Under the pieces are notes generated by a model. The model was not told the origin of the DNA, ran no database searches, and was given only the letters and a program-made list of their open reading frames with translations. A program made the translations under genes and the position numbers. Below, piece after piece: positions 23,820 to 45,675 of a stretch of DNA of 64,000 nucleotides (position 1 is the stretch's first letter; every line of letters starts with the position of its first letter). The DNA lies in assembly GCA_902809825.1 (NCBI GenBank), contig LR778114.1:2046001-2110000 (forward strand). Reading direction: 5' to 3'. The DNA is from Candidatus Hydrogenisulfobacillus filiaventi (GTDB taxonomy: Bacteria > Bacillota > Sulfobacillia > Sulfobacillales > R501).

Positions 23820-25538
23820 TCAGAACAGGCGGTAGAGGCGGTTGAAGCGCACCTCGCGCGCCGGGGGCACGCGCGCCTCCACGCCGTCCACCGTCACCCG
23901 GTAGGTTTCGGGGTCGACCGCAATCCGCGGGGTGGCATCGTTCCATACCATGTCCCGCTTACTGAGCGTGCGGGTCCCACCGGCGGCCACCAGCGGCTTG
24001 CGCAGGCCCAGCCGTTCCCCCAGTCCCTCCTCCACCGCCGCCCGGCTGGTAAAGACGAGGCTGGTCCGGGCGGGGACTGCGCCGTAAGTCCCGAACATGG
24101 GGCGATACCAGTTGGGTTCCGGGGTGGGGATGGACGCGCCCGGGTCGCCGGAAAGCGCCCAGGCAATGAAGCCACCCTTAATGATGAGCTTGGGCCGCAC
24201 CGCGAAGAACGGAATCTCCCACACCACCAGGTCGGCCCACCGGCCGGGGGCGATGCTGCCCACCCAGTCGGCAATCCCGAAGGTAATAGCCGGATTGATG
24301 GTGAGCTTGGCCAGATACCGCAGCACCCGCCGGTTATCGGAGCCCGGCCGTTCCTCCGGCAGCGGCCCCCGTTCCCGCTTCATCTTGTCCGCAGTCTGGA
24401 AGAGGCGCTGCCAGTTCTCGCCTACCCGGCCCATGGCCTGGGAATCGCTGGAGTACATCGACAGCACCCCCAGGTCATGCAGGACGTCCTCGGCGGCAAT
24501 GGTTTCCGGCCGGATCCGGCTCTCGGCGAAGGCCAGGTCCTCGGCCAGATGGGGATCCAGGTGATGGCAGACCATGAGCATGTCCAGGTGCTCATCGATG
24601 GTGTTGACCCCATACGGCCGGGTAGGGTTGGTGGAGGCCGGGAGCACATTGGGCTCACCCGCCAGGCGCAGGATATCGGGGGCATGGCCGCCCCCGGCCC
24701 CCTCGGTGTGATAGGTGTGGATCACCCGGCCGTTGATGGCGCGCCGGGTATCCTCCACAAAGCCGGCTTCGTTGAGGGTGTCGGTATGGATGGTCACCTG
24801 CACATCCAGGCGATCCGCCACCGCCAGGCAGCGATCGATCACAGCCGGGGTGGCCCCCCAATCCTCGTGGATCTTGAGGCCCAGGGCCCCCGCCCGGATC
24901 TGCTCCTCCAGCGGCTCTTCCCGGGCGCTGTTGCCCTTACCCAAAAAGCCCACATTGACGGGGAAGGCCTCCGCCGCTTCCAGCATGCGGGCCAGGTTCC
25001 ACGCTCCCGGGGTGCAGGTGGTGGCCAGGGTGCCATGCGCCGGCCCGGTGCCGCCCCCGATCATGGTGGTAATGCCAGCCGACAGGGCAGTCCATACCTG
25101 CGCGGGGTCAATCCAGTGAATATGGGCGTCGATGCCGCCAGGGGTGACAATACAGTGCTCCCCGGCGATGACCTCCGTCCCCGGGCCGATCACCAGCCGG
25201 GGGTCTACCCCGTCCATGACGTCGGGGTTGCCCGCCTTGCCCACTGCCGCAATGCGGCCATCCCGGATGCCGATGTCGGCCTTGACCACCCCCAGCAGGG
25301 GGTCCAGCACCACCGCGTTGGTGATAACCAGGTCCGGCGTCCCCGCCGCGCGGGGCACGGCGGCCTGGCCCATCCCGTCGCGGATGCTCTTGCCCCCGCC
25401 GAAGACGGCCTCGTCCCCGGGGACGGTCAGGTCCCGCTCCACCTCCAGCACCAGGTCGCTGTCGGCCAGCCGGAAGCGGTCGCCGGCGGTGGGCCCATAG
25501 AGGGCTGCATAGCGGCGGCGCTCAAGACGCATGGCCAT
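23820..25538 (-). CDS. ureC: Urease subunit alpha
   Basis: Catalytic subunit (572 residues) hydrolysing urea to ammonia and carbamate at a di-nickel site. Nickel ligands and active-site motifs: [11 protein letters not shown], the carbamylated Lys in [45 protein letters not shown], flap [30 protein letters not shown] and [16 protein letters not shown] with the Ni-ligand Asp. Length and motifs are those of functional bacterial enzymes. It overlaps ureB by 17 bp. Confidence 0.98.
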
Positions 25539-25860
25539 CCTCCTCCCCGGGCCGCACCCCGCCGTTGACCGCGTCCCGGAAGCCCACCACCCGCCGGCGC
25601 CCCCCGAAGGCCACCAGTGTCACGGTGATGGTCATCCCGGGCTCGAAGCGCACCGCCGTACCGGCCGGGATGTCGAGCCGCATGCCCAGCGCCGCCGCCC
25701 GCTCAAACTGCAGAGCCGGGTTCACCTCGTAAAAGTGATAATGGGAGCCGACCTGCACGGGGCGGTCGCCGGTATTCGTCACCGTTACCGTCTGCCGCGG
25801 ACGGCCGGAGCAAAGCTCCAGACTGCCCTCCCCCGTCTGGTAGCCACCGATGGGATACAT
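25522..25860 (-). CDS. ureB: Urease subunit beta
   Basis: Structural subunit of 112 residues. Recognised by [49 protein letters not shown], the family core. Separate ureA and ureB genes correspond to the three-gene bacterial arrangement, not the fused Helicobacter one. ATG 25860 lies 11 bp after ureA. Confidence 0.97.
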
Positions 25861-25871
25861 GCGTGTCCCTC

Positions 25872-26195
25872 CTAATCCCGGGCCCGCCGTCCGGGTTGAA
25901 TGGGATCATGGCAGGAGATGAGCTTGGTGCCGTCGGGAAACGTGGCTTCGACCTGCACCATGGGCAGCAGTTCCGGTACCTCGGGCAGGACCTCGTCCGC
26001 CCCGATCACCTCCCGCCCCAGCTGCATGCATTCAGCTACCGAGCGTCCCTCGCGCGCCGCCTCCAGTAGGGCATCGGTAATCAGGGCCACTGCTTCCGGA
26101 TAATTGAGCAGGAGTCCCTTGCGCCGCCGGCGGCGTGCCACCTCCGCCGCCATGGCGATGAAGAGCTTCTCCTGGTCCCCCGGCGAGAGATACAC
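25872..26195 (-). CDS. ureA: Urease subunit gamma
   Basis: Structural subunit of 107 residues: [39 protein letters not shown], then [19 protein letters not shown] 26195 is seven bases after GGAGGG. First gene of the urease operon, so its upstream region should contain the operon promoter: a TATGAT candidate at 26298-26303 (minus strand) preceded by a palindrome at 26306-26321. Confidence 0.97.
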
Positions 26196-31176: not shown

Positions 31177-31217
31177 GATCCGCCCGGCAACCTCTATCCG
31201 GTAAAGGAGGATCCCCG

Positions 31218-32621
31218 ATGCCCGCCTCCCCGTCGGCGCGCCCCTTCCCCTTGCGGTTAACCCTGCCCGACCTCTCCAGCCTCTCCATCTCGAGCGTGGC
31301 CCCCCTCTTCAGCCTGGCGGCGGCGGGGCAGATGCTGGTCCGCCTCACCGGTCCCCGCGTGCTGTGGGCCGTGCTGGCGGTGGCGGTCCCCTTCGTGCTC
31401 AGCAGCACCATCTTCCGCCTGCTGAACCGGCACTTCCCCAACGCCGGCGCCTCCTACCACTGGTCGCGCCGGGTGCTGGGCCCGACAGCCTCCCGCTTCC
31501 AGTCCTGGATTCTGCTGATGGCGTACTTCTGGTCCCTACCCCCCATCGTCATCCCCGCCGCCACCCAGACCCTCGCCCTGGCCGGCCTGCCCCGTCCCGC
31601 CCCGCCCGCAGTGGTGCTGGCCGGGGCCGGATGGGTGGCCTTCGCCACCGGGGTGCTGCTGCTGGGCAGCCGGGTCACCGCCCGCGTCACCCAGGCCTTC
31701 CTGGTCCTGGAGGTCGCCGCGGTGGCCGTGCTGGCCGCCGTCGGCCTCGCCCGCTGGCACCCCGTGGCCGCCCCCGCCGGCCCCCTGCCCCTGCGCCCCT
31801 TCGCCGTCGCCATGGTGGTGGCCGCCACCATCGTCGACGGCTGGGAGATCGACAGCTACGCCGCCGAGGAGGCGCGCCGGCCCCGCACCACCCCCGGCAC
31901 CGGCGGGATGGCCGGCGCCCTGCTGGTGCTGGCCTACTACGGTCTGGCCTGGACCGTGCTGCTGCACACGGTACCGGTGCCGGTGCTGGCCGCGCACAGC
32001 GACGTGCTCACCACCTGGGCAGCCGCTGAGCTGCCGGGGGCGGGCCGCTGGGCGCTGCTGCCCATCCTGGCCTCCACCGCCGGGTCGCTGTGGCTGACCA
32101 CCTTCATCCTGTCGCGGGCGCTCTACGCCATGGGCCGCGACCGGCTGCTGCCGGCACCCTTGACCCGCCTTAACCGCTTCCATGCCCCCGTCTGGGCGAT
32201 CGCCCTTCCCGCGGCGGGAGCCCTCGCGGTGGTGGCCGTCAACCTGGCCTGGCCCTCGGTCACCGCCCTCTTCAATCTGGTATTGAGTTCAGCGGGGTTC
32301 TTCCTGGTGCTGGAGTTCCTGTTCGACAGCGTGACCGCGGCCGTCTTCCTGGTCCGGCAGCATCCCGCCAGCTGGCCGCATGCGCGCGACCGTCACCGTC
32401 ACCGCGGGCGGCTGGCGGCCGCCATCCTCACTGCCGCCTGGCTGCTGGCCCTGGCCCTGCTCTTCCTGCGATACGGCGCTGCCGTGCTGGGGCAGGGTAT
32501 CGACGCCGTCCTGGGCGTCATGCTGCTCCTGGGCGCGGGGTTTACGGTCCTCGACCGCCGCCGCCACCCCGGGCCCGAACCTCTCTTCATCTTCGATCCC
32601 GATGCGGTGGCCGGCCCCTGA
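31218..32621 (+). CDS. APC-superfamily permease, copy A of an inverted pair
   Basis: A 467-residue permease: LRLTLPDLSSLSISSVAPLFSLAAAGQMLV (TM1), NAGASYHWSRRVLGPTASRFQSW (TM2-3 motif with the conserved Gly-Ala-Ser-Tyr), IVDGWEIDSYAAEEARRP (TM6 acidic region). Codons from about residue 20 to 397 are almost identical at DNA level to copy B (33571-34992, opposite strand). The last 70 residues (from RLAAAILTAAWLL to FDPDAVAGP) are different. ATG 31218 follows AAAGGAGG. Substrate unknown. Confidence 0.85.
   Translation: MPASPSARPFPLRLTLPDLSSLSISSVAPLFSLAAAGQMLVRLTGPRVLWAVLAVAVPFVLSSTIFRLLNRHFPNAGASYHWSRRVLGPTASRFQSWILLMAYFWSLPPIVIPAATQTLALAGLPRPAPPAVVLAGAGWVAFATGVLLLGSRVTARVTQAFLVLEVAAVAVLAAVGLARWHPVAAPAGPLPLRPFAVAMVVAATIVDGWEIDSYAAEEARRPRTTPGTGGMAGALLVLAYYGLAWTVLLHTVPVPVLAAHSDVLTTWAAAELPGAGRWALLPILASTAGSLWLTTFILSRALYAMGRDRLLPAPLTRLNRFHAPVWAIALPAAGALAVVAVNLAWPSVTALFNLVLSSAGFFLVLEFLFDSVTAAVFLVRQHPASWPHARDRHRHRGRLAAAILTAAWLLALALLFLRYGAAVLGQGIDAVLGVMLLLGAGFTVLDRRRHPGPEPLFIFDPDAVAGP
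31276..32409 (+). repeat. 1,134-bp inverted repeat, arm A
   Basis: Begins within the permease N-terminal codons at CCAGCCTCTCC and ends at the CCGCGGGC motif near codon 398. It pairs with 33798-34931 in reverse orientation without indels. Only a few substitutions were found by eye, for example near 31561, 31768 and 32021, so identity is above 99 percent. Confidence 0.93.
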
Positions 32622-32628
32622 TGCCGCG

Positions 32629-33495
32629 TCAGCCGGGCAACCCGCCCGACCCGCCGGCCGGCTGGATCCACCCCGCCATCCCCAGCACCCGCCCCGCTGC
32701 CGGCTGCCAGACCCAGGACCGCATCGGTCGGGGGCCCTGCCGCTGGCGACAAGCGTCCAGGAAGAAGATGCCGGCCAGCACCAGCGCGTCGGGGAAGGAC
32801 GCGGCCACCCGCCGCTCGCGGTCCGGCCCCCCGCCGCCCATCAGGGCCAGGAACTCCTCCCGGCGCGCCGCCGGGACCCCTTCGCTGGAGAAGACCTCGG
32901 TAACCAGCACCGCCATCCCCCCCGGTGCCAGCAGCCGATCCACCAGCGCACAATGGCGGTCCGCGACCCCGCGGAAGAGCGCATCGGCCGGCTGGCGGGG
33001 CCAGGCCTCGGGAGCGGTGGGCAGGTGCTCCCGCAGCACGGGGGCCACCAGCTGGGTAACCACGCCCACCGAGAGCACCAGGTCGGCGGAGCCGGCCCAG
33101 GGGGCCAGCTCCGCCGGCACCGGCGGCACCCCGGCCAGGACCTGCGCGACCGCCTCCGCCCGAGGCCAGCTGCGCCAGGACCGCAAGCGGACATGGAGCC
33201 CGCTCAGGTCGGCCTCGACTGCTGTCCACTGCACCTGCGGGAACCGGCCGCGCAGCCGGCCGGCGGTCTGGCGGAGGGCTTCGCCGTCCACGTCCGCCAG
33301 GACCACCGCGGGGAAGGCGGCCGCCAGCTCTGCCAGGGGCAGGTCGCGACCGTTGCCGACCCCCAGCACCACCGCCCGCCGGCGGGCCGCCGCCTGGCCC
33401 AGGGCCGCCGCCACCAGCCCCCGCACCGCCTCCTGGTGTGCGCTCCAGTCCCCGCCGGTCCGCAGCTCCCGGTTGATCCGCCGGTAAATATCCAC
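32629..33495 (-). CDS. SAM-dependent methyltransferase-like protein
   Basis: A 288-residue class I Rossmann protein. AVVLGVGNGRDLPLAEL is motif I (GxGxG), AVVLADVDGEAL motif II, a middle acidic/Leu stretch and ADLVLSVGVVTQLV motif IV, then APGGMAVLVTEVF motif VI. Target unknown. GTG 33495 has GGGGAGG eight bases upstream. It is the only complete gene between the two arms of the inverted repeat and is transcribed toward copy A. Confidence 0.7.
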   Translation of the reverse strand: MDIYRRINRELRTGGDWSAHQEAVRGLVAAALGQAAARRRAVVLGVGNGRDLPLAELAAAFPAVVLADVDGEALRQTAGRLRGRFPQVQWTAVEADLSGLHVRLRSWRSWPRAEAVAQVLAGVPPVPAELAPWAGSADLVLSVGVVTQLVAPVLREHLPTAPEAWPRQPADALFRGVADRHCALVDRLLAPGGMAVLVTEVFSSEGVPAARREEFLALMGGGGPDRERRVAASFPDALVLAGIFFLDACRQRQGPRPMRSWVWQPAAGRVLGMAGWIQPAGGSGGLPG

Positions 33496-33570
33496 CCTGA
33501 CCGCCTCCCCGCACGCCTCTGGCCCGATGGTACCGCAGCCGGTCGCCGGGGGCACGGGGGAGGCCCGCCC

Positions 33571-34992
33571 TTATAACGGCGGAACCGGCTCTGGCCCGGG
33601 CGCTTCCGGCTCGAAGATGAAACAGGCGCCGGCAGAGCGCTGGCGGCGCGCGGCCAGGATGCTGAACAACGTCCCGCCGCCCAGCAGGACCGCAAGAACC
33701 GCATCCAGCCCAGGTCCCACCGCCGCGCCCCCGTACCGGAGGAAGAGCCCTGCAATGCCGGCCAGCCACAGGCTGGTCACCACCGAAACCACCAGCAGCC
33801 CGCGGTGACGGTGACGGTCGCGCGCATGCGGCCAGCTGGCGGGATGCTGCCGGACCAGGAAGACGGCCGCGGTCACGCTGTCGAACAGGAACTCCAGCAC
33901 CAGGAAGAACCCCGCTGAACTCAATACCAGATTGAAGAGGGCGGTGACCGAGGGCCAGGCCAGGTTGACGGCCACCACCGCGAGGGCTCCCGCCGCGGGA
34001 AGGGCGATCGCCCAGACGGGGGCATGGAAGCGGTTAAGGCGGGTCAAGGGTGCCGGCAGCAGCCGGTCGCGGCCCATGGCGTAGAGCGCCCGCGACAGGA
34101 TGAAGGTGGTCAGCCACAGCGACCCGGCGGTGGAGGCCAGGATGGGCAGCAGCGCCCAGCGGCCCGCCCCCGGCAGCTCAGCGGCCGCCCAGGTGGTGAG
34201 CACGTCGCTGTGCGCGGCCAGCACCGGCACCGGTACCGTGTGCAGCAGCACGGTCCAGGCCAGACCGTAGTAGGCCAGCACCAGCAGGGCGCCGGCCATC
34301 CCGCCGGTGCCGGGGGTGGTGCGGGGCCGGCGCGCCTCCTCGGCGGCGTAGCTGTCGATCTCCCAGCCGTCGACGATGGTGGCGGCCACCACCATGGCGA
34401 CGGCGAAGGGGCGCAGGGGCAGGGGGCCGGCGGGGGCGACCACGGGGTGCCAGCGGGCGAGGCCGACGGCGGCCAGCACGGCCACCGCGGCGACCTCCAG
34501 GACCAGGAAGGCCTGGGTGACGCGGGCGGTGACCCGGCTGCCCAGCAGCAGCACCCCGGTGGCGAAGGCCACCCATCCGGCCCCGGCCAGCACCACTGCG
34601 GGCGGGGCGGGACGGGGCAGGCCGGCCAGGGCGAGGGTCTGGGTAGCGGCGGGGATGACGATGGGGGGTAGGGACCAGAAGTACGCCATCAGCAGAATCC
34701 AGGACTGGAAGCGGGAGGCTGTCGGGCCCAGCACCCGGCGCGACCAGTGGTAGGAGGCGCCGGCGTTGGGGAAGTGCCGGTTCAGCAGGCGGAAGATGGT
34801 GCTGCTGAGCACGAAGGGGACCGCCACCGCCAGCACGGCCCACAGCACGCGGGGACCGGTGAGGCGGACCAGCATCTGCCCCGCCGCCGCCAGGCTGAAG
34901 AGGGGGGCCACGCTCGAGATGGAGAGGCTGGAAAGGTCAGGCAGGGTGAGCTGCAGCGGAAACCGGCTGCGGATCACGGGGTCCGGGTTCAT
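33571..34992 (-). CDS. APC-superfamily permease, copy B of an inverted pair
   Basis: A 473-residue permease matching copy A except at its first about 20 residues (MNPDPVIRSRFPLQLTL) and its last about 75 (LLVVSVVTSLWLAGIAGLFLRYGGAAVGPGLDAV... to EPVPPL). One amino acid change inside the shared part (HPVV for HPVA) was seen. ATG 34992 follows AGGAGG. The combination of near-identical cores with divergent ends points to recent gene conversion or inversion between arms, not to a simple recent duplication of the whole gene. Confidence 0.85.
   Translation of the reverse strand: MNPDPVIRSRFPLQLTLPDLSSLSISSVAPLFSLAAAGQMLVRLTGPRVLWAVLAVAVPFVLSSTIFRLLNRHFPNAGASYHWSRRVLGPTASRFQSWILLMAYFWSLPPIVIPAATQTLALAGLPRPAPPAVVLAGAGWVAFATGVLLLGSRVTARVTQAFLVLEVAAVAVLAAVGLARWHPVVAPAGPLPLRPFAVAMVVAATIVDGWEIDSYAAEEARRPRTTPGTGGMAGALLVLAYYGLAWTVLLHTVPVPVLAAHSDVLTTWAAAELPGAGRWALLPILASTAGSLWLTTFILSRALYAMGRDRLLPAPLTRLNRFHAPVWAIALPAAGALAVVAVNLAWPSVTALFNLVLSSAGFFLVLEFLFDSVTAAVFLVRQHPASWPHARDRHRHRGLLVVSVVTSLWLAGIAGLFLRYGGAAVGPGLDAVLAVLLGGGTLFSILAARRQRSAGACFIFEPEAPGPEPVPPL
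33798..34931 (-). repeat. 1,134-bp inverted repeat, arm B
   Basis: Reverse-orientation partner of 31276-32409, same length. The two arms are separated by 1,388 bp that hold both permease tails and the methyltransferase gene. No transposase or terminal repeats are seen, so this is not an insertion sequence. Confidence 0.93.
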
Positions 34993-35037: not shown

Positions 35038-36108
35038 TCAGGACGCGGACGGCGTGCCGGGCAGGGCCTTGGGGGAAGCGGCCCCCAGGACCTCAGGCAG
35101 ATGACGTAACAGGGCCAGACCCAGTTTGACCCCTTCCTGCACCGCCGGGTCCTTTAGCGTGCCCAGAAGGCGCACCGCCCCGTAGCGGGTTCGGTCGCGG
35201 GCCGCTTCCGCCACACTGGCATCCAGCGCTGCCGCCAGGCGATCCAGCAGTCCGGACAGGTGCAACCGTTCCGCCTGCTCCGCCGCCGCGCGCAGGTTCT
35301 CCAGCGCCCGGCCCAAGGCACCGGCATCCACCTGCATCGTGGATAGGCTGTCCAGCAGCTGAAGGGCGGTGTCCAACCCGCCCTCCACCGTCATCCGGTC
35401 CAGGGCCCGGGCCAGGCGGTCCAGCACCTCCCCCTGCCGGCCCAGGACCTCCAAGAGACGGCGGACAGCCGGCTGCCGGGCCAGACCCAAGGCCGCCTCC
35501 ACCACCGCCCCCAACCGCGGGTCGCTCAGGGCCTCCATCAGATCTGCCAGGTGCGGCCCCGCCTGCCTCAAGGCCGCCGTCAGCCGGGCCATCTCCGGTC
35601 CGGTCAGGAACGCCCCCAGCTCCTGCAGGCGGGCTGCGGTCTCCACCGACCGGGCAAAGGCCTCGCTGCGGATCCAGGTATCCAGGGCCTGCACCGCGGC
35701 TTCCTGCCCCCGTTCCAGCTCCGGCCCCCAGCGCTCGCTCAGCTGCTGCACCCAGGCGCGGGCCACCTCGGCCGCCGCGGTTGCCGATACCGGCTGTCCG
35801 GCCGCCAGGGCGGCCAGCCAATCCGGCAGCGGGAGCATCCCCAGGGAGCGCGCCGCGCCCGCCAGCTCCGCCGCCCAACGGTTCCACAGCTCGGCGCCCA
35901 GCGCACCGGCCTCCCGCATCCCCGTCGTCCCGCCCAGTACCCCGGTACTCATGGCCGCAGCCATATCCCGCAGGTTCTCGGCCAGGCGGCCCCCGCCCAT
36001 GCGGGTCATGGCCTCCAGCAGGCTGTCAAAGGTGGACCGGGCCATATCCAGCAGCTCCTGGGTCTCCACCTCCACCGCGTCCCGGATCCCGCTCTGTTCC
36101 CCGGTCAT
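35038..36108 (-). CDS. Hydrogenase-operon helical protein, DUF1641-like C-terminus
   Basis: A 356-residue, almost wholly helical, Ala/Leu-rich soluble protein. The C-terminal RYGAVRLLGTLKDPAVQEGVKLGLALLRHLPEVLG matches the DUF1641 pattern (LxxLxDPxVQxGLxxxLxLLxxLG). DUF1641 proteins are often encoded beside oxidoreductases or hydrogenases but their role is not established. Start ATG 36108 overlaps the protease stop (ATGA). It is the last gene of the hydrogenase operon. Confidence 0.6.
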   Translation of the reverse strand: MTGEQSGIRDAVEVETQELLDMARSTFDSLLEAMTRMGGGRLAENLRDMAAAMSTGVLGGTTGMREAGALGAELWNRWAAELAGAARSLGMLPLPDWLAALAAGQPVSATAAAEVARAWVQQLSERWGPELERGQEAAVQALDTWIRSEAFARSVETAARLQELGAFLTGPEMARLTAALRQAGPHLADLMEALSDPRLGAVVEAALGLARQPAVRRLLEVLGRQGEVLDRLARALDRMTVEGGLDTALQLLDSLSTMQVDAGALGRALENLRAAAEQAERLHLSGLLDRLAAALDASVAEAARDRTRYGAVRLLGTLKDPAVQEGVKLGLALLRHLPEVLGAASPKALPGTPSAS

Positions 36109-36635
36109 GGCGCAGCCTCCTTCCCCTCCCGGCCCGCCCGGGCCCGGACCCGCCGGACCGTATCCACCACCAGTTCCACCGCCGCCGGTACCGCCGCTGC
36201 CACCGTATCCGTCAACCCCATCTGCCCCTCCTCGGGCCCCCAGGAGGCCGGCTCGCAGCCCACCAGCCAGACCGGCGGCAGGGCGGGGGTGAGAGTCCCC
36301 GCCAGGGCCAGCACCGCCAGGGGGTGCAGGGTGTGGGCATCCGCCGCCGGGCCGGCAGTGCCCGGCGCGGGCACCGACTCGGGCCCGATGGCCAGCAGGG
36401 AGAGGGTACCGGGGGGATGTCCCCCCGCATAGGCATCCACCAGCACCACCGCCTGCCAGGGGCGGGCCAGGGCAAAGGCCAGGTCATAACTCCGGATGCC
36501 GAAGTCCACCACTACCACGTCTGGCCCCAGCAACCGCGCATCCAGGCGGTGGACCACCTCCACCCCGAAACCGTCGTCGCCCAGGAAGATGTTGCCGATC
36601 CCTGCCACCAGGATCGCGTCCGCTCCGCCGCTCAT
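36105..36635 (-). CDS. [NiFe]-hydrogenase maturation endopeptidase
   Basis: HybD/HupD-family protease (176 residues) that removes the C-terminal tail of the large subunit after nickel insertion. Family motifs: ILVAGIGNIFLGDDGFGVEVV with the Ni-binding Glu/Asp in the GDDGFG region, VVDFGIRSYDL, VVLVDAYAGG and a His-containing HTLHPLAVLALA. It overlaps the upstream small gene by 4 bp. The large subunit in this operon keeps a 25-residue tail after DPCLPCGVH, its expected substrate. Confidence 0.92.
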   Translation of the reverse strand: MSGGADAILVAGIGNIFLGDDGFGVEVVHRLDARLLGPDVVVVDFGIRSYDLAFALARPWQAVVLVDAYAGGHPPGTLSLLAIGPESVPAPGTAGPAADAHTLHPLAVLALAGTLTPALPPVWLVGCEPASWGPEEGQMGLTDTVAAAVPAAVELVVDTVRRVRARAGREGKEAAP

Positions 36636-36916
36636 AATGGCTCCACCTCGTCCGCGCGGTAGAAGAAGCGGTGACCGATCAAACGGGCCTGACCCCAGTC
36701 GCGCCCGGGGTCGTCATCCACCGTCAGCGCCAGGTAGAGGATGCCTTCGCCATCCTCCTCCACCGACTCCACCGTGGCCGTCCGACCGGTCAGCAGCAGA
36801 TCGAACACGTCCTGGCTGCGGGCGGGGCGGATGCGGACCCGCGATCCTGGGCCGATCCGGCGGCCATCCACTTCCGCTTCCCGGCGGCAGTTGCTGCGCG
36901 ATTCCTCCGGTACCAT
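36632..36916 (-). CDS. Small conserved hydrogenase-operon protein (94 residues)
   Basis: Begins MVPEESRSNCRREAEVDGRRIGPGSRVRIRP and is a beta-rich SH3-like or Tudor-like protein (GSRVRIRP, GRTATVESVEEDGEGILYLALTVDDD). I recall similar small ORFs in group 1h-type hydrogenase loci but no assigned function. Start/stop overlap with the protease gene indicates translational coupling. Confidence 0.65.
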   Translation of the reverse strand: MVPEESRSNCRREAEVDGRRIGPGSRVRIRPARSQDVFDLLLTGRTATVESVEEDGEGILYLALTVDDDPGRDWGQARLIGHRFFYRADEVEPL

Positions 36917-36918
36917 GG

Positions 36919-37866
36919 CTATCCCTCCCCCCGTTCCGGCGGCCGGAAGGTGACCCCATGCAGCCCGTAGAGCACCTCCCGGGGCAGGCCCCGGGTCCGC
37001 TCCAGCAGCGCCCGCACCCGCGGATCGGCCGCCTTGGCCGCCTCCTGTTCCGCGGGGGTCAGGGTAAGGATGCGCAGGGTCAGTAATTCGTCGATCTCCA
37101 GCCCGTCAAAAAGGTCGCCGGGACTTTCCGGTGCCAGCTGCGGGTAGTCATAGAGGATAATGGGCGCCGCCAGCATGATGCGGCCGTCGCGCCGGCTGCC
37201 CGCCAGCACCGGCCACCACCCGCGGTCTTGAGGGCAGGCCGCCGCCCGGGACGCCGCCCAGGGCTCAGGGTCCTGCAGGGAGATCCAGCGTCCCTCCTCC
37301 GCCCCCAGCAGGAGGTGGGCGGCGAGCAGGCTGTAGTGCAGGGCATCCGCTTCCGGCAGGCCGGGTGGAACCGGGGTACGGTTTTCCAGCCGCACGTGGA
37401 CTTCGTGGAGGACCCCCCGGGGACCCTGGCCTACCGCCCGGGTGAGCACCTTCAACCCGGCCGTGATCCCCCGGGTGCGGCCCTGTCCCTGGGCGGGGTC
37501 CCCAACCGTCTCCGCCGGCCAGGTCCAGGTCCAGGCTCCCGCCCCGTCCGGCGCCGACCAGGACTGCTCCCGCTGCCAGGCCGGCTCCCACCCGGCGGGC
37601 CCGCATCCCGGCTCGGGGTCGAGCAGTTCCAGGCAGCGCAGCCGGAGGCGAATCCGCGGCCGCTCCGCCTCCAGGAGGCACACCGTCTCCCGCGCCCAAG
37701 GGTCGCTGCCGCCTTGTTCCCGGGCATAGACGGGCGGCACCACCCGCCCGAACGTCCAGCGGCGGCGGTTCTTGACCGCATCCGGGCGGTAGGGGTACAG
37801 GGCGTAGCCCTCGTAGAGCACCGCATCCGCTACCCGTTCACTCCCCTGCCAGTCCCACATGGGCAT
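36919..37866 (-). CDS. Conserved hydrogenase-locus protein (YPYRxxxxKNRRRWTFG family)
   Basis: A 315-residue soluble protein with the N-terminal signature VLYEGYALYPYRPDAVKNRRRWTFGRVVPP, repeated in uncharacterised proteins of actinobacterial-type [NiFe]-hydrogenase clusters. No cofactor motif is seen beyond two isolated cysteines. C-terminal part LFDGLEIDELLTLRILTLTPAEQEAA is helical. ATG 37866 follows GGAAGGGAGG and overlaps the DUF6084-like gene by 29 bp. Confidence 0.7.
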   Translation of the reverse strand: MPMWDWQGSERVADAVLYEGYALYPYRPDAVKNRRRWTFGRVVPPVYAREQGGSDPWARETVCLLEAERPRIRLRLRCLELLDPEPGCGPAGWEPAWQREQSWSAPDGAGAWTWTWPAETVGDPAQGQGRTRGITAGLKVLTRAVGQGPRGVLHEVHVRLENRTPVPPGLPEADALHYSLLAAHLLLGAEEGRWISLQDPEPWAASRAAACPQDRGWWPVLAGSRRDGRIMLAAPIILYDYPQLAPESPGDLFDGLEIDELLTLRILTLTPAEQEAAKAADPRVRALLERTRGLPREVLYGLHGVTFRPPERGEG

Positions 37867-38506
37867 TCCTCCCTTCCTGCCCTGCCAGCAGCGCCGCCAG
37901 GGCCTCTTCCCAGGTGGCGAAGCCGGAGCGGCTCCGCCACCGGTTCAACCGGTCGAAGACAGCACGGTCCATCCGGATCCAGGCCTGGCCGGGGAAGAAA
38001 CGGTCGAGGGTCTCGCGGAAGGCGGACACGGGCACCCGGGCGGTCACCTCCTCCTCCCAGGCGATCGGGCGGATCGCCATCCCCTGACCGGGCTGCCAGC
38101 CGAACACCATCCCGCTGAACAACAGCCGGAGGGGGATCTCGCCTGTTTCCAGCGCCGCCAGGAATTTCCCGGACGCCACCGCCACGTCATAAGAACAGGC
38201 CAAGGGCAGGTCGACAGCGGTGTCCGCCTCAAAAGCCGGTACCACCAGGGCTTCCTGGCTCCACAGCAGGTCGCCCGCCGTTTCCCCCCAGCGGGACGGC
38301 TCCCCGAAGACGTCCTGCAGCCGCTCCTCCTCCGCCGGCGTGTACCGGCGCTCCCGGGCCGCCAGCCGCACCTGCACGCGGGCCAGTACCCCTTCCACCC
38401 GCCCGCCGCCGCCGGCCGTCACCCCCAGCCGCAGCAGCAGGGCGGGGCGGGCGGTGGCGGGTGCCGGGCCCGCCCCCAGGACTGTGAAGTGTACCGCCGG
38501 GGTCAT
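37838..38506 (-). CDS. Hydrogenase-locus accessory protein (DUF6084-like)
   Basis: A 222-residue protein starting MTPAVHFTVLGAGPAPATARPALLLRLGV, with the characteristic tract ERRYTPAEEERLQDVFGEPSRWGETAGDLLWSQ and later IPLRLLFSGMVFGW. This is the DUF6084-type protein typical of group 1h hydrogenase operons. Start ATG 38506 overlaps the preceding stop (ATGA). Function not established; a chaperone role in assembly is a guess. Confidence 0.7.
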   Translation of the reverse strand: MTPAVHFTVLGAGPAPATARPALLLRLGVTAGGGGRVEGVLARVQVRLAARERRYTPAEEERLQDVFGEPSRWGETAGDLLWSQEALVVPAFEADTAVDLPLACSYDVAVASGKFLAALETGEIPLRLLFSGMVFGWQPGQGMAIRPIAWEEEVTARVPVSAFRETLDRFFPGQAWIRMDRAVFDRLNRWRSRSGFATWEEALAALLAGQEGRNAHVGLAGE

Positions 38507-39078
38507 GCCGGCCATCCTCCCCCCGCCTGCTCCAGGTCCTGGCGTACCGCCTGCAGGGCCCGGGGCCACTCCGGCCCGGCCAGGCGCAGACGGCCCACCG
38601 CCTCATAACAGCGGTCGAGGGGCAGCACCCAGGCCCGGGTCCCGGCGGGCGTACGGTCCACCCACAACACCTCGACCTCGGGCTGCAGCGCTGCCACCGC
38701 CGGGAACCGGCCCTCCCATGCCTCCCACAGCCCCGGCGGCAGGCTGCCCCGTACCGCCCCCGCCGGACCCGGGTAATAGACCTCGGGCGGCGCACCCAGG
38801 CCGGGCCGAAGGGCATAGAGGAGTCCGACCGGCTGCACACCCGCCGCCAGATCCAGCCCCGCCACCGGCCGGACCCCATCGGGAATGGCGAGGAAACGGG
38901 CGGAGGGTGCCCTGGAAAACAGCAGCACACAGGCAGGGCAGGCACAGACCGGCCGCCGTTGTACCCGCTCCAGCAGGTGGCGGTGGCCGGAGGGCAGCGG
39001 CGCCCCGCACACCTCACAGACCGGTCCCCCACGGCCCGCCGCCCAGGCGCGGGCCTGATTCAACACCCGGCTGCCCAT
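38503..39078 (-). CDS. Hydrogenase-locus zinc-ribbon protein (DUF5947-like)
   Basis: A 191-residue protein with an N-terminal zinc-ribbon-like pair of CxxC motifs, VCEVCGAPL and VCACPACVLLF, then RFLAIPDGVRPV, PVGLLYALRPG and a WVDRTPAGTRAWVLPLDRCYE region. This matches the DUF5947-type protein found next to NifU-like and DUF6084-like genes in group 1h hydrogenase loci. It may bind metal or assist electron-transfer assembly; no proof. Confidence 0.7.
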   Translation of the reverse strand: MGSRVLNQARAWAAGRGGPVCEVCGAPLPSGHRHLLERVQRRPVCACPACVLLFSRAPSARFLAIPDGVRPVAGLDLAAGVQPVGLLYALRPGLGAPPEVYYPGPAGAVRGSLPPGLWEAWEGRFPAVAALQPEVEVLWVDRTPAGTRAWVLPLDRCYEAVGRLRLAGPEWPRALQAVRQDLEQAGGGWPA

Positions 39079-39082
39079 GCGC

Positions 39083-39916
39083 TCACCCTCCGACCAGAGC
39101 CAGCTTGGCCCGGTTGCCCTGTACCAGGAGCGGCACCGGCTCCAGGTGCCCCCCGCCCCCGTCCGCCTCCCTGCCCGCCTTCCGGGGGTCGTAAGCGGTC
39201 CCACACCCCTGGCAGACCAGGAGGTCCTGCCGGCGTTGGAAGGCGGCGGGCCGGTCACACCGGGGGCAATAGCGGTGGAAGGCGTACCAGTCCCCACCGC
39301 AGCGCAACAGCAGCACGGCATGCCCGTCCAGGTCCAGGACCCGGACCCCGCTGGGGCCCGGGTCCTCCAGCCCTTCCACCTCCACCCAGCCGGCGGCGGC
39401 CGCAGGCAGTCCCTGCAGGACCCGCGGCGGGCCCGCCTCCCCTTCCACTACCAGCTCCTCCAGGTCAGGCGCTGCCACGGCCAGCTCCCGGCGGAGGGCC
39501 TCCTCCACCGTCACCCGCGAAGACGGGCAACCGGCGCAATGCCCCTCCAACGCCAGACGGACCCGGCCCCCCTCCACCCCTAAGAGCCGTACCCCGCCCC
39601 CGTGGCTGGCCAGATAGGGCCGCACCCGCTCCAGCGCCTCCTCCACTCGTTGGGAAAGTGAACGGGGGTGAAGGTCGTGGACCACCAGCAGCGGGCTCAG
39701 GATCGGATTGCGGGACCAGAGCTCCACCAGTTCCGGGTCCCGCCTGCGGGCCAGCTCCAGGGCCTCCTCCCAGCCGAAGCGGTACATGGTCAGGAGGGCA
39801 TTGACCACGGCCCCCACCCGGCGCCGCAGTTCCGGATTCCCGCTCTCCCCCACCTCCGCTACCACCGTCTCCATATCGCGGGCGGCGGCCTCGAACTGTT
39901 CCAGCCGGCTTGCCAT
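39083..39916 (-). CDS. NifU-like protein with C-terminal cysteine-pair domain
   Basis: A 277-residue protein. The N-terminal helical part is followed by a NifU C-terminal-type domain (VEEALERVRPYLASHGGGVRLLGVEGG ... GHCAGCPSSRVTVEEAL), whose CxxC carries a [4Fe-4S] cluster in NifU. A further domain, HRYCPRCDRPAAFQRRQDLLVCQGCGTAYDPRKAG, has two CxxC pairs reminiscent of a Rieske or rubredoxin-like centre. Could deliver Fe-S clusters or electrons for the hydrogenase. ATG 39916, 26 bp after hypB. Confidence 0.75.
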   Translation of the reverse strand: MASRLEQFEAAARDMETVVAEVGESGNPELRRRVGAVVNALLTMYRFGWEEALELARRRDPELVELWSRNPILSPLLVVHDLHPRSLSQRVEEALERVRPYLASHGGGVRLLGVEGGRVRLALEGHCAGCPSSRVTVEEALRRELAVAAPDLEELVVEGEAGPPRVLQGLPAAAAGWVEVEGLEDPGPSGVRVLDLDGHAVLLLRCGGDWYAFHRYCPRCDRPAAFQRRQDLLVCQGCGTAYDPRKAGREADGGGGHLEPVPLLVQGNRAKLALVGG

Positions 39917-39942
39917 CGCGCCTCCTCCTCTCCCCGCGCGGT

Positions 39943-40692
39943 TCAGCTGCCGAGGGCCGGCTCCGCGGCCGCCCCGGCCGCCGCGCCGGCCTCCATCCGC
40001 CGCCACAACCAGGTGAGCCAGGCCTCCATGCCGGCGCCGCTGCGGGCGGACACGGGCAGGATGCGGGCGGCCGGGTTGACCGCGGTCACCGCCGCGATCA
40101 GCCGGGGCAGGTCGAGCTCCAGATAGGGCAGGAGGTCGGTCTTGGTGATCAGCACCAGATCGGCAGCCTGAAACATATCGGCGTACTTGTACGGCTTGTC
40201 CTCGCCCTCGGTGACGCTGTACAGCACCACCCGGGCGTTGCCGCCCAGATCAAACAGGGCGGGGCAGATGAGATTGCCCACGTTCTCGATGAAGAGCACG
40301 CGCGGCAAGGGATCCAGCCCCTCCAGCGCATGAGCCACCATGTGCGCATCCAGGTGGCAGACGCTACCGGTGACAATCTGCCTCGCCACCGCCCCCGCCT
40401 GCCGGAGGCGCTCCGCGTCCCGTTCGGTCCGCTGGTCGCCTACCAGCACCGCCGGCGGCACCCCCAGCGAGGCCAGCCGGCCCACCGTCCGCTCGAGCAG
40501 GGTGGTCTTACCCGAGCCTGGTGCGCTCAGGAGTTCGAAGGCGGTGATCCCCTGCTCCCGGAAGAACCGGCGGTTGGCGCCGGCATGGGCCTGGTTGTGG
40601 GCCAGCACATCCACCTCCAGACGCACCCGCTCCCCTTCCGCGTGGCGGTGCGGGGCTTCCTCGGGATGACCGCAGCCGCAGGTTGCGCACAT
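39943..40692 (-). CDS. hypB: Hydrogenase nickel incorporation GTPase HypB
   Basis: GTPase of 249 residues. N-terminal high-affinity metal motif MCATCGCG (CxxCGC) and short His/Glu stretch, P-loop LLSAPGSGKTTLLER, metal-site HLDAHMVAHAL with nearby C, switch FIENVGNLICPALFDLG, and specificity motif ITKTDLLPYL. Works with HypA to load nickel into the large subunit. It may also serve the guanidine hydrolase, since HypA/HypB-type chaperones are reported to activate such enzymes. Confidence 0.97.
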   Translation of the reverse strand: MCATCGCGHPEEAPHRHAEGERVRLEVDVLAHNQAHAGANRRFFREQGITAFELLSAPGSGKTTLLERTVGRLASLGVPPAVLVGDQRTERDAERLRQAGAVARQIVTGSVCHLDAHMVAHALEGLDPLPRVLFIENVGNLICPALFDLGGNARVVLYSVTEGEDKPYKYADMFQAADLVLITKTDLLPYLELDLPRLIAAVTAVNPAARILPVSARSGAGMEAWLTWLWRRMEAGAAAGAAAEPALGS

Positions 40693-40697
40693 GGTCC

Positions 40698-41057
40698 TCA
40701 CTCCTCTCCGGGGCCCGCCGCCGGCGGCCCCAGCACGATGGACTCCAGGATGAGCCGGGTGCCGCTCAGCGGGCGCGCCCCGGGCGCGGCACAAACCGGG
40801 CAGGGATCCAGCAGGTCCTCCATGGTGAACTCCTGCCCGCACGTCCGGCAGGCGCCCCGGCCCGGCACCCGGTGCCACTCCACCCGCGCCCCGGCGGCGG
40901 AGGTTCCGGCCAAGGCCACGGTCAACGCCAGTTCCAGCGCTTCCGGCACCACCCCGCTCAGGGCCCCCACCGCCAGCACCACCGCCTGTACCGGACGGCC
41001 GCCCGCCTCCCGTTCCACCGCCTCGGCAATCGGCACGGCCAGGGATAGCTCATGCAT
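40698..41057 (-). CDS. hypA: Hydrogenase nickel metallochaperone HypA
   Basis: 119-residue chaperone: N-terminal MHELSLA (MHE nickel site), and a zinc domain with CRTCGQEF and CPVCAAPGARPLSG (two CxxC). Located between hypE and hypB with 3-5 bp gaps. Together with HypB inserts nickel. Confidence 0.97.
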   Translation of the reverse strand: MHELSLAVPIAEAVEREAGGRPVQAVVLAVGALSGVVPEALELALTVALAGTSAAGARVEWHRVPGRGACRTCGQEFTMEDLLDPCPVCAAPGARPLSGTRLILESIVLGPPAAGPGEE

Positions 41058-41060
41058 GGC

Positions 41061-42155
41061 TCAGCAGATGCGGGGGAGCGGGTCGCCGACCAGCATGTCC
41101 AGCACCCGGGTCCCCCCGATGTCGGTGCGCAGAAAGACCATCCCCGCCGGCTCCGCCGCCACCTCGCCGATGATGGCGGCGTCCCGCCCCAGGGGATGCG
41201 CCCGCAGCACCTCCAACGCCCGCGCGGCCGCTTCCGGGGCCACCACCGCCAGCAGCTTCCCTTCGTTGGCGATGGTAAGGGGATCCAGACCCAGCAGCTC
41301 ACAGACCCCGGTCACAGCCGGGTGGACGGGAATAGCGCGTTCCTCCAGGGCAATGGCCACCTCGGAGGCCAGGGCGATCTCGTTGAGGGTGGTGGCCACC
41401 CCGCCCCGCGTGGGGTCCTTCAGGCAGTGCACCGCTGGACCCACAGCCTCCAGCAGGGCGCGGACCAGGGTGTGCAGCGGGGCGGTGTCGCTGGTGACCG
41501 ACGCCTCCACCCCGACCTCCCCCCGCGCCAGCATCACCGCCACCCCATGGTTGCCGACCTGGCCGCTCACCAGCACCCGGTCGCCGGGGCGGGCCAAGTG
41601 CTGGCCCACCGGCGCCGGGGCTATCACCCGCCCTATCCCGGCGGTAGTGATGTACACCCCGTCCCCATGGCCTTGCGGCACTACCTTGGTGTCCCCCGTC
41701 ACCACCGGCACCCCCGCCGCGCGGGCCGCCGCCGCCATGGAGTCCACCAGGGCCTGCAGGTCGGCCACCGGATACCCCTCCTCCAGGATGAAGGCGGCCG
41801 ACAGCCCCAACGGCCAGGCTCCCGCCATGGCCAGGTCATTGATGGTGCCATGCACGGCCAGACAGCCGATATCCCCGCCCGGGAACACCAGCGGGCTGAC
41901 CACATAGCTGTCGGTGGTAAAGGCCAGGGTCCCGGCGGCCTCCAGGAGCCCCGCATCATCCATCCGGTCGAGGGCCGGATTGCTAAAGGAGGGGGCGAAC
42001 ACCCCTTCCACCAGGTTGTGGGTCGCCTTGCCGCCGCTGCCGTGGCTCATGGTCACATGGGTATCGCGCAAGGCAAAACGCCGGCGGCGGATCTCGCGCG
42101 CCCGCGCAATCTTCTCCAGCACCGCCTCCGGTATGGTCCCCGTCTCGTGGGCCAT
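41061..42155 (-). CDS. hypE: Carbamoyl dehydratase HypE
   Basis: ATP-dependent dehydratase (364 residues, PurM/AIR synthetase fold) that forms the cyanide ligands of the NiFe centre with HypF. Motifs: MSHGSGGKATHNLV near the N-terminus, DSYVVSPLVFPGGDIG, VTGDTKVVPQGHGDGVYITTAGIG, LKDPTRGGVATTLNEIA and the essential terminal cysteine (PLPRIC). hypF is not in this operon or window. Confidence 0.97.
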   Translation of the reverse strand: MAHETGTIPEAVLEKIARAREIRRRRFALRDTHVTMSHGSGGKATHNLVEGVFAPSFSNPALDRMDDAGLLEAAGTLAFTTDSYVVSPLVFPGGDIGCLAVHGTINDLAMAGAWPLGLSAAFILEEGYPVADLQALVDSMAAAARAAGVPVVTGDTKVVPQGHGDGVYITTAGIGRVIAPAPVGQHLARPGDRVLVSGQVGNHGVAVMLARGEVGVEASVTSDTAPLHTLVRALLEAVGPAVHCLKDPTRGGVATTLNEIALASEVAIALEERAIPVHPAVTGVCELLGLDPLTIANEGKLLAVVAPEAAARALEVLRAHPLGRDAAIIGEVAAEPAGMVFLRTDIGGTRVLDMLVGDPLPRIC

Positions 42156-42197
42156 GGGGTTGCCTCCCTCCTGTGATGGCCGGCACCAGGTGCCGGT

Positions 42198-43322
42198 TCA
42201 GAAACGGATGTCCTGCCGGGCGTCGGCGCGGGAGAAACGGCCATAGTTGTAATAGGCCGCGCAGGCTCCCTCCGGGGACACCATGCAGGTGCCGATGGGG
42301 GTTTCGGGGGTGCAGGCGGTCCCGAACACCTTGCACTGCCAGGGTTTGATTACCCCTTTCAGCACCTCGCCGCACTGGCAGGCTTTGGGATCCGCCACCC
42401 GCACCCCTGGTACCGCATAGCGGAGCTCGGCATCCCAGTCCGCAAATTCCGGCCGCAACCGGAGGGCGCTATGGTTGATAAACCCCAACCCCCGCCACTC
42501 GAAATAGGGCCGCAGCTCCATGGTGGCAGCCATGGCCGCCAGCGCGCGCGGGTTCCCTTCCGGCCGGACCACCCGCTGGTACTGGTTCTCCACCTCGGCC
42601 CGGCCTTCGGCCAGCTGCTTCACAATCATGTAGACCGACTGGATGATGTCGAGGGGCTCGAACCCGGAGATGACCACCGGTTTGCCGTAGTCCCGGGCCA
42701 CAAAACGGTACGGGTTCATGCCGATGACCATGCTGACATGGCCCGGCCCGATGAAGCCGTCCAGGCGCAAGTCAGGCGAATCCAGCAGCGACTTGAGGGC
42801 CGGGATGATCAGCACATGGTTGCAGAACACAGAGAAATTGGTGATCCCCTCCGCCCGGGCCCGGAGCAGGGTAGCGGCGGTGGAAGGGGCGGTGGTCTCC
42901 ATGCCGATGGCGAAGAACACCACCGGGCGCCCGGGGTTGGCCCGGGCAATGGCCAGGGCGTCCAGAGGGGAATAGACAAAGCGCACATCGGCCCCTTCCG
43001 CCTTGGCATCCAGTAGACTCCCGTGTGATCCCGGCACCCGCATGGTATCCCCGAAGGTGGTGAAGATGACGCCGGGCTGGCGGGCGATGGCCACCGCGTC
43101 GTCCACCCGGCCCATGGGCAGCACGCACACCGGGCAGCCCGGCCCGTGCACCAGGTCGATATTGGGCGGAAGCAGGTCCTCGATGCCGTGCTTGAAGATG
43201 GTATGGGTATGGCCCCCGCACACTTCCATGATCTTGATCTCGCGGTCGCCTGCCAGGCGGGCGATGGCATCGGCAGTGCGCCGGGCCAGCTCCGGGTCGC
43301 GGAATTCCTCGACGAAGCGCAT
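42198..43322 (-). CDS. hypD: Hydrogenase assembly protein HypD
   Basis: Fe-S scaffold (374 residues) on which Fe(CN)2CO is built with HypC. ICGGHTHTIF-type motif present as IMEVCGGHTHTIFKHGIEDLLP, then GPGCPVCVLP, GFIGPGHVSMVIG, ISGFEPLDIIQSV and the C-terminal cysteine set CQCGEVLKGVIKPWQCKVFGTACTP. All cysteines expected of the [4Fe-4S] and thiol sites are there. Starts 15 bp after hypC. Confidence 0.97.
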   Translation of the reverse strand: MRFVEEFRDPELARRTADAIARLAGDREIKIMEVCGGHTHTIFKHGIEDLLPPNIDLVHGPGCPVCVLPMGRVDDAVAIARQPGVIFTTFGDTMRVPGSHGSLLDAKAEGADVRFVYSPLDALAIARANPGRPVVFFAIGMETTAPSTAATLLRARAEGITNFSVFCNHVLIIPALKSLLDSPDLRLDGFIGPGHVSMVIGMNPYRFVARDYGKPVVISGFEPLDIIQSVYMIVKQLAEGRAEVENQYQRVVRPEGNPRALAAMAATMELRPYFEWRGLGFINHSALRLRPEFADWDAELRYAVPGVRVADPKACQCGEVLKGVIKPWQCKVFGTACTPETPIGTCMVSPEGACAAYYNYGRFSRADARQDIRF

Positions 43323-43337
43323 GGCTCGCCTCCCCCT

Positions 43338-43619
43338 TTACACCGGTTCCGGCCCGCCGCCGGCATCCCAGAGCGCGACCTCCTCCGACAGGCCCGTCCC
43401 CAGCTGGCGCAGCAGGTCCAGCATGGCGGCCGCCTCCCCCTCATCGATGCGGCTCATGGCAAAACCCACGTGTACCAGCACCCAATCCCCCGCCTCCAGG
43501 CCCAGGTCCTTCAAGAGGGCGATGCTCACATTGCGCCGGATGCCGATCACGTCCACAGCAGCAATGTCCCGATCCCGGTCCACAATCGCCAGCACCTGCC
43601 CGGGAATGGCCAGACACAT
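43338..43619 (-). CDS. hypC: Hydrogenase maturation chaperone HypC
   Basis: 93-residue chaperone with the essential N-terminal MCLAIPGQVLAI (Cys2 after Met), the family GVxRxVSxxLL stretch as GIRRNVSIALLKDLGLEAGDWVLVHVGFAMSRIDE, and a helical tail. Binds HypD and the large subunit precursor. Confidence 0.97.
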   Translation of the reverse strand: MCLAIPGQVLAIVDRDRDIAAVDVIGIRRNVSIALLKDLGLEAGDWVLVHVGFAMSRIDEGEAAAMLDLLRQLGTGLSEEVALWDAGGGPEPV

Positions 43620-43688
43620 GCGGAGACACCTCCTCCCTAGTCCGGGCCGGCCCCGCCCGGCGCGGGGCGGGGCCGTCCGGCACGGGGC

Positions 43689-43799
43689 CTACAGGTTGCG
43701 GATGCGCACGTACCGCTGCAGGTCCGGCAGGGACTGCAGCACCAGCTGGGCGGCCCAGATCAGGATCGCCAGCAGGGCCAGGGTGAACAGGAACTGCAT
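43689..43799 (-). CDS. 36-residue single-pass membrane peptide in the hydrogenase operon
   Basis: ATG 43799, six bases after GGAGG, gives a 36-residue peptide: MQFL, a single hydrophobic helix (FTLALLAILIWAAQLVLQSL) and the amphipathic basic tail PDLQRYVRIRNL, ending TAG. It lies 24 bp after the large-subunit stop and 69 bp before hypC. Size and position suggest a membrane anchor or small subunit for the otherwise soluble hydrogenase, comparable in role to the small membrane-linking proteins of other high-affinity hydrogenases. No homology claimed. Confidence 0.72.
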   Translation of the reverse strand: MQFLFTLALLAILIWAAQLVLQSLPDLQRYVRIRNL

Positions 43800-43823
43800 C
43801 ACCGCACCTCCTCTCCGGCGGAC

Positions 43824-45635
43824 TCACGCCTCCGCGGGGCTGCCTGCCCCGTAGGTGGGCGAGTGGCGGACCTCCACCGTGCGGCCGTTACCCACGTACA
43901 TGTGCACGCCGCAGGGCAGGCAGGGGTCGAAGCTGCGCACCGCCCGCATGATGTCAATGCCCTTGAAGGTGTCCGGGCCGTTCTCCTCGAAGATGGGGGT
44001 GCCCTGGACCGCGTCCTCGTAGGGACCGGGGGTCCCGTAGACGTCGCGGGGGTTAGCATTCCAGGGGGTGGGCGGGTAAGGATGGTAGTTGGCGATCTTG
44101 CCGTCCCGGATGACCACGTGATGGGAGAGCACGCCCCGCACCGCCTCATGGAAGCCGCAGCCGATGGCTTCCTCCGGCACCTTGAAGGGCTCCCACACCG
44201 TGGTGCGACCGGCCCGCACCTCCGCCATGGCCTTCTCCAGGAAATAAAGGGCCGCTGCCGCCGCGTAGGCCTGAAAGTAGGTGCGGGCACGGTCGCGCTC
44301 GATGGCGTTGCTCCAGCGCGGTACCTGCCACTCCAGGGTGGTCTCCGGGAAGGAGGCGGTGCGGGGGAGGTTGATGAGGACGCTGTGGCCGGTAGCCTTG
44401 ACGTAGCCGATGTCCACCAGTCCCGCCAGGGCGGTGGCCCACAGGCGGGCGATGGCTCCGCCACCGGTGTCGAGGGCCAGGTGGTCACCCGTGCGTTTGT
44501 CATACCAGCGCGGGGACATGACCCAGCTATAGTTGTGCTCGAAATCGCGCTTCTGGGGCTTGGGGATGGTGGTCTGATTCCACGGGTGCCGCTTGTCCAC
44601 CGGATTGCCGAGCGGATCGTGGGTGACGAAGCGTTCCTCGTTCTCCCAGTCGGCGTAATAGGAATGGCCGAGCAGGATGCGCATGCCCAGGTTAATCTCC
44701 ACCAGGTCGGTGGTGACCAGCTCCCCGTCCACCACCACCCCGGGGGTGACGAACATACGCCGTCCCCAATCCGTCATGTGGCGGTATTGGTAGTCACAGT
44801 GGTCAGGGTCCTGGAAGGACCCCCAGCATCCCAGGAGAATGCGCCGGCGGCCGACCTCCTCGTAGCCGGGCAGGGCTTCGTAGAAGAAGTTGAAGAGGTC
44901 GTCGTGCAGCGGCACCATCTTCTTCATGAAGTCGATGTACTTCATGAGCCGCACCATGTAGTCGGAGAAGAGCTGCACCGTGGGCACGGTCCCTACCCCG
45001 CCCGGATAGAGGGTGGAGGGGTGCACGTGGCGGCCTTCCATGAGGATGAACATCTCCCGGGTGTAGCGGCTGGTGGCGAGGGCCTCCCGGTAGATGGCCC
45101 CGGTAAAGGGGTTGAGGGCGGTCATGATGTCGGCGATGGTGCGGTAGCCGTGAATCCCGGCATGAGGGGCCGGGGTCTTCTGGGCTTTCTCCCATACCCC
45201 CGGGTTGGTTTCCCGGACCATCTGTTCACAGAAGTCGACTCCCACCAGGTTTTCCTGGAAGATGTTGTGGTCGAACATGTACTCGGCGGCTTCGCCCAGA
45301 TTGATGATCCATTCCGCCAGCGGGGGCGGCTTGACCCCGAAGGCCATGTTCTGGGCATAGACCGCGCAGGTGGCGTGGTTGTCGCCGCAGATGCCGCAGA
45401 TGCGGCTGGTGATGAAGTGGGCGTCGCGGGGATCCTTGCCCTTCATGAAGATGCTGTAGCCGCGGAAGATGGAAGAGGTGCTGTGGCACTCCGCCACCAC
45501 CCGGTTCTCGAAGTCGATCTTGGTGTAGATGCCGAGGCTCCCGACGATGCGGGTGATGGGATCCCACGCCATCTCGACCAGTTTGGACTCGCCCCCGGCA
45601 GCAGCGCGGGTGGTGCGGTGCTCGGTCGTGGCCAA
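43824..45635 (-). CDS. [NiFe]-hydrogenase large subunit, group 1h-type
   Basis: Catalytic subunit with the NiFe(CN)2CO centre. From TTG 45635 (GAGGGAGA upstream; GTG 45659 is possible) it is 603 residues. N-terminal ligands C80/C83 in SRICGICGDNHATC; C-terminal ligands in FDPCLPCGVH (about C572/C575), followed by a 25-residue tail for the maturation protease. Features such as YCVYAQNMAFGV-like CAVYAQNMAFGV, GRHVHPSTLYPGGVG and LALDTGGGAIARLWA are those of the group 1h high-affinity uptake enzymes. Oxidises H2, probably feeding the respiratory chain. Confidence 0.95.
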   Translation of the reverse strand: MATTEHRTTRAAAGGESKLVEMAWDPITRIVGSLGIYTKIDFENRVVAECHSTSSIFRGYSIFMKGKDPRDAHFITSRICGICGDNHATCAVYAQNMAFGVKPPPLAEWIINLGEAAEYMFDHNIFQENLVGVDFCEQMVRETNPGVWEKAQKTPAPHAGIHGYRTIADIMTALNPFTGAIYREALATSRYTREMFILMEGRHVHPSTLYPGGVGTVPTVQLFSDYMVRLMKYIDFMKKMVPLHDDLFNFFYEALPGYEEVGRRRILLGCWGSFQDPDHCDYQYRHMTDWGRRMFVTPGVVVDGELVTTDLVEINLGMRILLGHSYYADWENEERFVTHDPLGNPVDKRHPWNQTTIPKPQKRDFEHNYSWVMSPRWYDKRTGDHLALDTGGGAIARLWATALAGLVDIGYVKATGHSVLINLPRTASFPETTLEWQVPRWSNAIERDRARTYFQAYAAAAALYFLEKAMAEVRAGRTTVWEPFKVPEEAIGCGFHEAVRGVLSHHVVIRDGKIANYHPYPPTPWNANPRDVYGTPGPYEDAVQGTPIFEENGPDTFKGIDIMRAVRSFDPCLPCGVHMYVGNGRTVEVRHSPTYGAGSPAEA

Positions 45636-45675
45636 TCTCCCTCGCCTCCCTCTGTGCACAAGCGGCCGGCACGCT

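Follow-up and report, generated by a model that had tools for sequence, protein, structure and literature searches.

Near-identical inverted cores of two convergent permease genes in Candidatus Hydrogenisulfobacillus filiaventi: a probable recent gene-conversion tract inside old paralogues

The genome of Candidatus Hydrogenisulfobacillus filiaventi is a single contig of 2,570,337 bases, of which positions 2046001-2110000 (G+C 71%) were analyzed here; this whole stretch of 64,000 nucleotides is referred to as the window, and its numbering is used unless stated otherwise. It contains two convergent genes for APC-type permeases, designated permA and permB, whose cores are the arms of a long inverted repeat and between which lies one further gene. 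Urease genes are found on the permA side and a hydrogenase run is found upstream of permB; a urease and a group 1h/5 hydrogenase have been reported for strain R50 (PMC10080006). The features considered are as follows.

23820..26195, - strand: urease genes, ureC with small subunits upstream, on the permA side (Urease_alpha match at genome position 2071167, window 25167; homology to comparison locus L048)
31218..32621, + strand: permA, APC-type permease, 467 aa (open reading frame; Pfam AA_permease, E 8e-16)
31276..32409, + strand: left arm, the putatively homogenized permA core (3 mismatches in 1,134; dS 0.006)
32410..32621, + strand: C-terminal tail of permA with its last two helices, their placement taken from the permB model by analogy (32 of 69 aa shared with the permB tail; dS 0.92)
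32629..33555, - strand: spacer gene encoding a possible methyltransferase-like protein of 308 aa (open reading frame; weak matches to Methyltransf_33, E 0.084, and Hen1, E 0.04)
33571..33797, - strand: permB tail, last two helices and C-terminus (alignment, dS and permB model)
33571..34992, - strand: permB, APC-type permease, 473 aa (Pfam AA_permease; synteny; model with pLDDT 86)
33798..34931, - strand: right arm, the putatively homogenized permB core (comparison with the left arm)
35038..46752, - strand: hydrogenase run upstream of permB, with small and large subunits, hypD, hypE, hypA, hypB, others, a maturation protease and a DUF1641-like gene (open reading frames)

Within the hydrogenase run, the HypD and protease (TIGR00072) labels come from family matches and the DUF1641 label from a weak one, hypE, hypA and hypB were named by homology to relatives, and the subunits were assigned by reading. 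The order of protease, DUF1641-like gene and permease at the permB locus recurs at two comparison loci (L040 and L041), and permB therefore probably occupies the ancestral position. Just upstream of permA, at 30430-31176, is a nucleotidyltransferase-like gene, whose match to NTP_transf_5 falls below Pfam's cut-off.

The two arms, 31276-32409 (+) and 33798-34931 (-), are inverted copies of 1,134 bp each that align without indels and differ at three positions (31562/34645, 31768/34439 and 32021/34186), as a sequence-only reading of the window had described; two of the differences are silent and the third is a replacement, Ala184 in permA versus Val185 in permB. A repeat search returned the pair with ragged ends as 31240-32418/33789-34967 (1,179 nt, 99%), and a chance origin is ruled out because the second-best inverted match within 29000-37000 measures only 24 nt. 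Beyond the arms, identity falls at once, to 14-20 of 30 positions per block in the tails and 21 of 30 in the block starting at 31240, which confirms the sharp divergence on both sides that had been claimed. The sequence beyond the arms but inside the genes is diverged yet still homologous, with 46% identity between the tail peptides; this homology of the flanks is a point absent from the sequence-only reading. No third copy of the arm was found anywhere in the whole genome, which holds two copies only, and plasmid records searched with the arm gave no match. An Rfam scan of 28000-39000 was likewise without a match, and scans of 30300-36700 returned no promoter-like site and three weak terminator-like sites.

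Both permeases match the AA_permease family (PF00324) above its cut-off. AlphaFold2 predicted an APC fold for permB from a 25-row alignment, and the solved structures identified by Foldseek as the best matches to this model were those of AdiC and ApcT. The fold and the Pfam family are common to permA, permB, AdiC, ApcT and a GkApcT-type CAT homologue, but the structural matches reach only 14-19% identity, and the permA/permB clade differs from the AdiC/ApcT type in a His-rich loop that precedes the final two helices (23 of 25 rows) and in a repeated linkage to nickel/cobalt genes. In the permB model, the arm begins where the first helix begins and ends where the helix at 390-425 starts; some 20 residues at the N-terminus, the last two helices and the C-terminus fall outside it.

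Divergence between permA and permB changes steeply along the genes. The cores differ by a dN of 0.001 and a dS of 0.006, versus a dN of 0.46 and a dS of 0.92 in the tail and a dN of 0.39 and a dS of 0.90 in the first 20 codons, the two latter dS values being rough because they are based on 69 and 20 codons, respectively. The near-identity of the cores thus reaches silent sites. Between permA and L039, a permease from another family of the same order, dN is 0.49 in the tail and 0.23 in the core. In maximum-likelihood trees of 25 sequences, the permA-permB distance is 1.32 for the tail and 0.003 for the core, a conflict in depth between the flank and tract trees, and the corresponding permA-L039 distances are 1.41 and 0.54; the tail tree groups permA and permB as sisters with a support of only 54. 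Because the tails of permA and permB have diverged about as far from each other as those of permA and L039, their cores would be expected to lie about 0.5 apart, at about 70% identity and not 99.7%. Three other genomes (G004, G010 and G024) contain 2-3 members of the clade each, and in all five of their co-resident pairs, none of which is adjacent, the cores are 45-54% identical.

We consider the near-identical arms to be best explained by a recent gene-conversion tract inside old convergent paralogues, with a probability of roughly 0.87. The tract ends abruptly inside genes that are otherwise diverged and homologous, and conversion is favored because both flanks are equally old and the step at each arm edge is sudden; a core that is near-identical where about 70% identity was expected points to recent conversion, not recent duplication. 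The two genes would be old paralogues in convergent orientation with arms 1.4 kb apart, and homologous recombination would recently have replaced the central 1,134 bp of one gene by the copy in the other, wiping out the divergence there. The copied part, the transport core, would take in every helix except the last two, and the 20 codons at the start and roughly 70 codons at the end of each gene would have stayed distinct. The process is likely to be general RecA-type conversion, perhaps repeated, helped by the closeness of the copies and possibly by a requirement that both proteins share one transport core. Resolution by crossing-over would invert the 1,388-bp spacer, exchange the tails and shift the spacer gene from the permB to the permA transcription unit, an outcome that is probably rare and unselected.

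Per generation, conversion in enterobacteria has been put at 8.6e-6 for each rRNA operon per donor and at 2e-8 for the tuf pair (PMC8022953), rates that make conversion plausible here. Assuming a mutation rate like that of E. coli, given as 1e-10 in PMC8022953, the three differences in 2 x 1,134 bp suggest that the last full homogenization took place about 1e7 generations ago, an order of magnitude at best, and the deposited arms might have been slightly over-homogenized by polishing. The earlier description of the homogenization as ongoing is upheld as to its recency, with a core dS of 0.006, and not as to its continuing.

The spacer gene is co-directional with permB and begins after a 15-nt gap behind it. 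The spacer contains the two differing permease tails, as had been stated, but the label of methyltransferase given to its gene is not confirmed, the best Pfam match being Methyltransf_33 with an E-value of 0.084. A search at 1e-8 among 61 genomes found no homologue besides the gene's own copy; at 1e-6, homologues were found in 5 of 398 genomes, its own included, and the other four are 25-35% identical. A single-sequence fold model reached a pLDDT of 44. By these sequence comparisons, the gene is one with few relatives and no confident family.

One rival explanation, which is quite unlikely, is a used inversion switch, in which frequent inversion of the spacer would swap the tails and re-wire the spacer gene between transcription units, the resulting variation being selected. 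When 32410-33797 was inverted in silico, both frames stayed intact and encoded hybrids of 472 and 468 aa with the last two helices swapped, and the spacer gene came to lie on the + strand, 15 nt behind the hybrid permA (the same distance as before), having left the transcription unit on the hydrogenase side for that on the permA side. The geometry proposed in the sequence-only reading, with each core joined to the other's tail and the spacer gene flipped, is therefore sound: the inverted repeats flank a segment whose inversion leaves the genes intact. Inversion of the spacer between the arms is possible, its mechanism being plausible because crossing-over between inverted copies loses nothing, and near-perfect inverted repeats of 1,748 bp drive reversible inversion at hsdMS of Staphylococcus aureus (PMC6778178).

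Several observations argue against such a switch being in use. A search of 61 genomes with permB found clade members in 13, and the adjacent inverted pair occurs in this genome only, being absent from the 12 others that have homologues, the 60 relatives compared all lying outside its genus and family. The part exchanged, the last two helices and a short end, is outside the bulk of the conserved core. No dedicated recombinase, an enzyme expected for site-specific switches only, was found near the arms: the genome has 5 Phage_integrase and 7 Resolvase matches, none of them within 2046001-2110000. Conversion requires no inversion and alone accounts for the identity of the arms; the idea that inversion takes place or is used is not supported. 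The tails of permeases behind the same hydrogenase genes are no closer to the permB tail than to the permA tail (29/66 versus 26/66 identical residues for L040 and 28/66 versus 28/66 for L041), and syntenic tails therefore do not discriminate a past inversion. Three resolvase matches elsewhere in the genome (877653, 1840535 and 2338614 of the contig) have equal scores and frame lengths and may belong to copies of a single mobile element.

Whole-gene duplication in the recent past, followed by replacement or very fast divergence of both ends, is very unlikely. The core taken alone does resemble a young duplicate, but the flanks are mutually homologous, with silent-site divergence of the same age on both sides (dS 0.90 and 0.92), and such a history would require old homologous ends to have been brought in twice, independently. 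An assembly artefact, in which one arm was overwritten by the other in assembly or polishing, could be suspected from the use of Canu on Nanopore reads followed by Racon and Pilon (PMC10080006), but is extremely unlikely given that unique sequence borders each arm on both sides, that the three arm differences persist and that the whole 3.7-kb stretch should be short relative to Nanopore reads. Purifying selection on the protein was rejected as the cause of the arm identity, because the identity extends to silent sites.

Switching of surface antigens by RecA-dependent inversion is established for the sap genes of Campylobacter fetus, where a shared gene part likewise forms an inverted repeat on which homologous recombination acts; switching is established for sap only. 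The hsdMS genes of S. aureus (PMC6778178) also carry near-perfect inverted repeats inside paralogous genes with exchangeable variable parts, but there inversion has been observed and recA is not needed, whereas permA and permB are known from one deposited orientation. Like the tufA/tufB and rRNA operon copies (PMC8022953) and a set of 26 genes (PMC6053082), permA and permB are same-genome paralogues more alike than their age predicts, at silent sites too; they differ from those cases of concerted evolution in that only the middle of the gene is homogenized, the copies are adjacent and inverted, and one genome only is involved. Read as gene conversion, the locus would be a clean natural example, in the form of an inverted repeat, of a conversion tract between old flanks, and it illustrates that 99.7% identity need not signal a young duplication or a switch.

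Members of the permease clade repeatedly adjoin genes for nickel- or cobalt-related functions. The neighbors are hypB, hypA, hypE and hypD in Acidithiobacillus (L023-L025), hypD and hypE in the archaeon Metallosphaera yellowstonensis (L037), hydrogenase genes at L040 and L041, urease genes at L048, larB/larC at L034/L050 and L038/L055, and cobalamin genes at L039; at L022 and L026, a FUR-family regulator is directly upstream. Of the 18 clade genes in 13 genomes, 8 are situated no more than 10 kb from HypD, UreC or LarC (7 of 17 loci when permA and permB are treated as one), and stretches of this kind occupy 1.1% of these genomes (binomial 4.6e-10, with markers picked after viewing the neighbors and partly from these very loci). 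Among other APC permeases of the same 13 genomes, one of eight is near a marker, namely the permease at 28808-30394 of the window; the comparison of the clade with these genes gives a Fisher value of 0.13, or 0.056 without that permease. In a wider set, a hyp, urease, lar or cobalamin marker lies within 8.5 kb in 11 of 30 clade loci versus 0 of 7 controls, counts limited by the non-independence of related loci, by the double counting of some near relatives and by several short flanks. The remaining 19 of 30 loci, including the whole subclade of L046, L047 and L049, are without a marker. The His-rich loop has 3 to 7 His in the rows that carry it, and its lack of His in the larC-linked L034 and L038 is evidence against a general metal-handling role of the loop.

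A nickel/cobalt (or chelate) permease is a tentative assignment for the clade, with the odds somewhat against it, and histidine, agmatine or another solute is possible; were the linkage real, it would suggest APC-type importers of metal or metal chelate in acidophiles. A literature search of titles and abstract openings found no paper about an APC-type nickel permease, and the main text of PMC10080006 lacks the words 'nickel', 'inversion', 'inverted repeat' and 'gene conversion'. It is highly unlikely that all parts would hold jointly, namely an undescribed APC clade supplying metal enzymes with nickel/cobalt or a chelate through a urease-side copy and a copy in the hydrogenase run, conversion keeping one core, and reversible inversion exchanging the last two helices and handing over the spacer gene.

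A sample of 398 genomes of the phylum contained strong matches to the clade (over 300 bits) in two, this one and G004. In G004, an 85-kb second contig carries two hypD genes and one clade permease (43793-74750, covered in part by L045), and hydrogenase genes may for this reason lie on a plasmid there.
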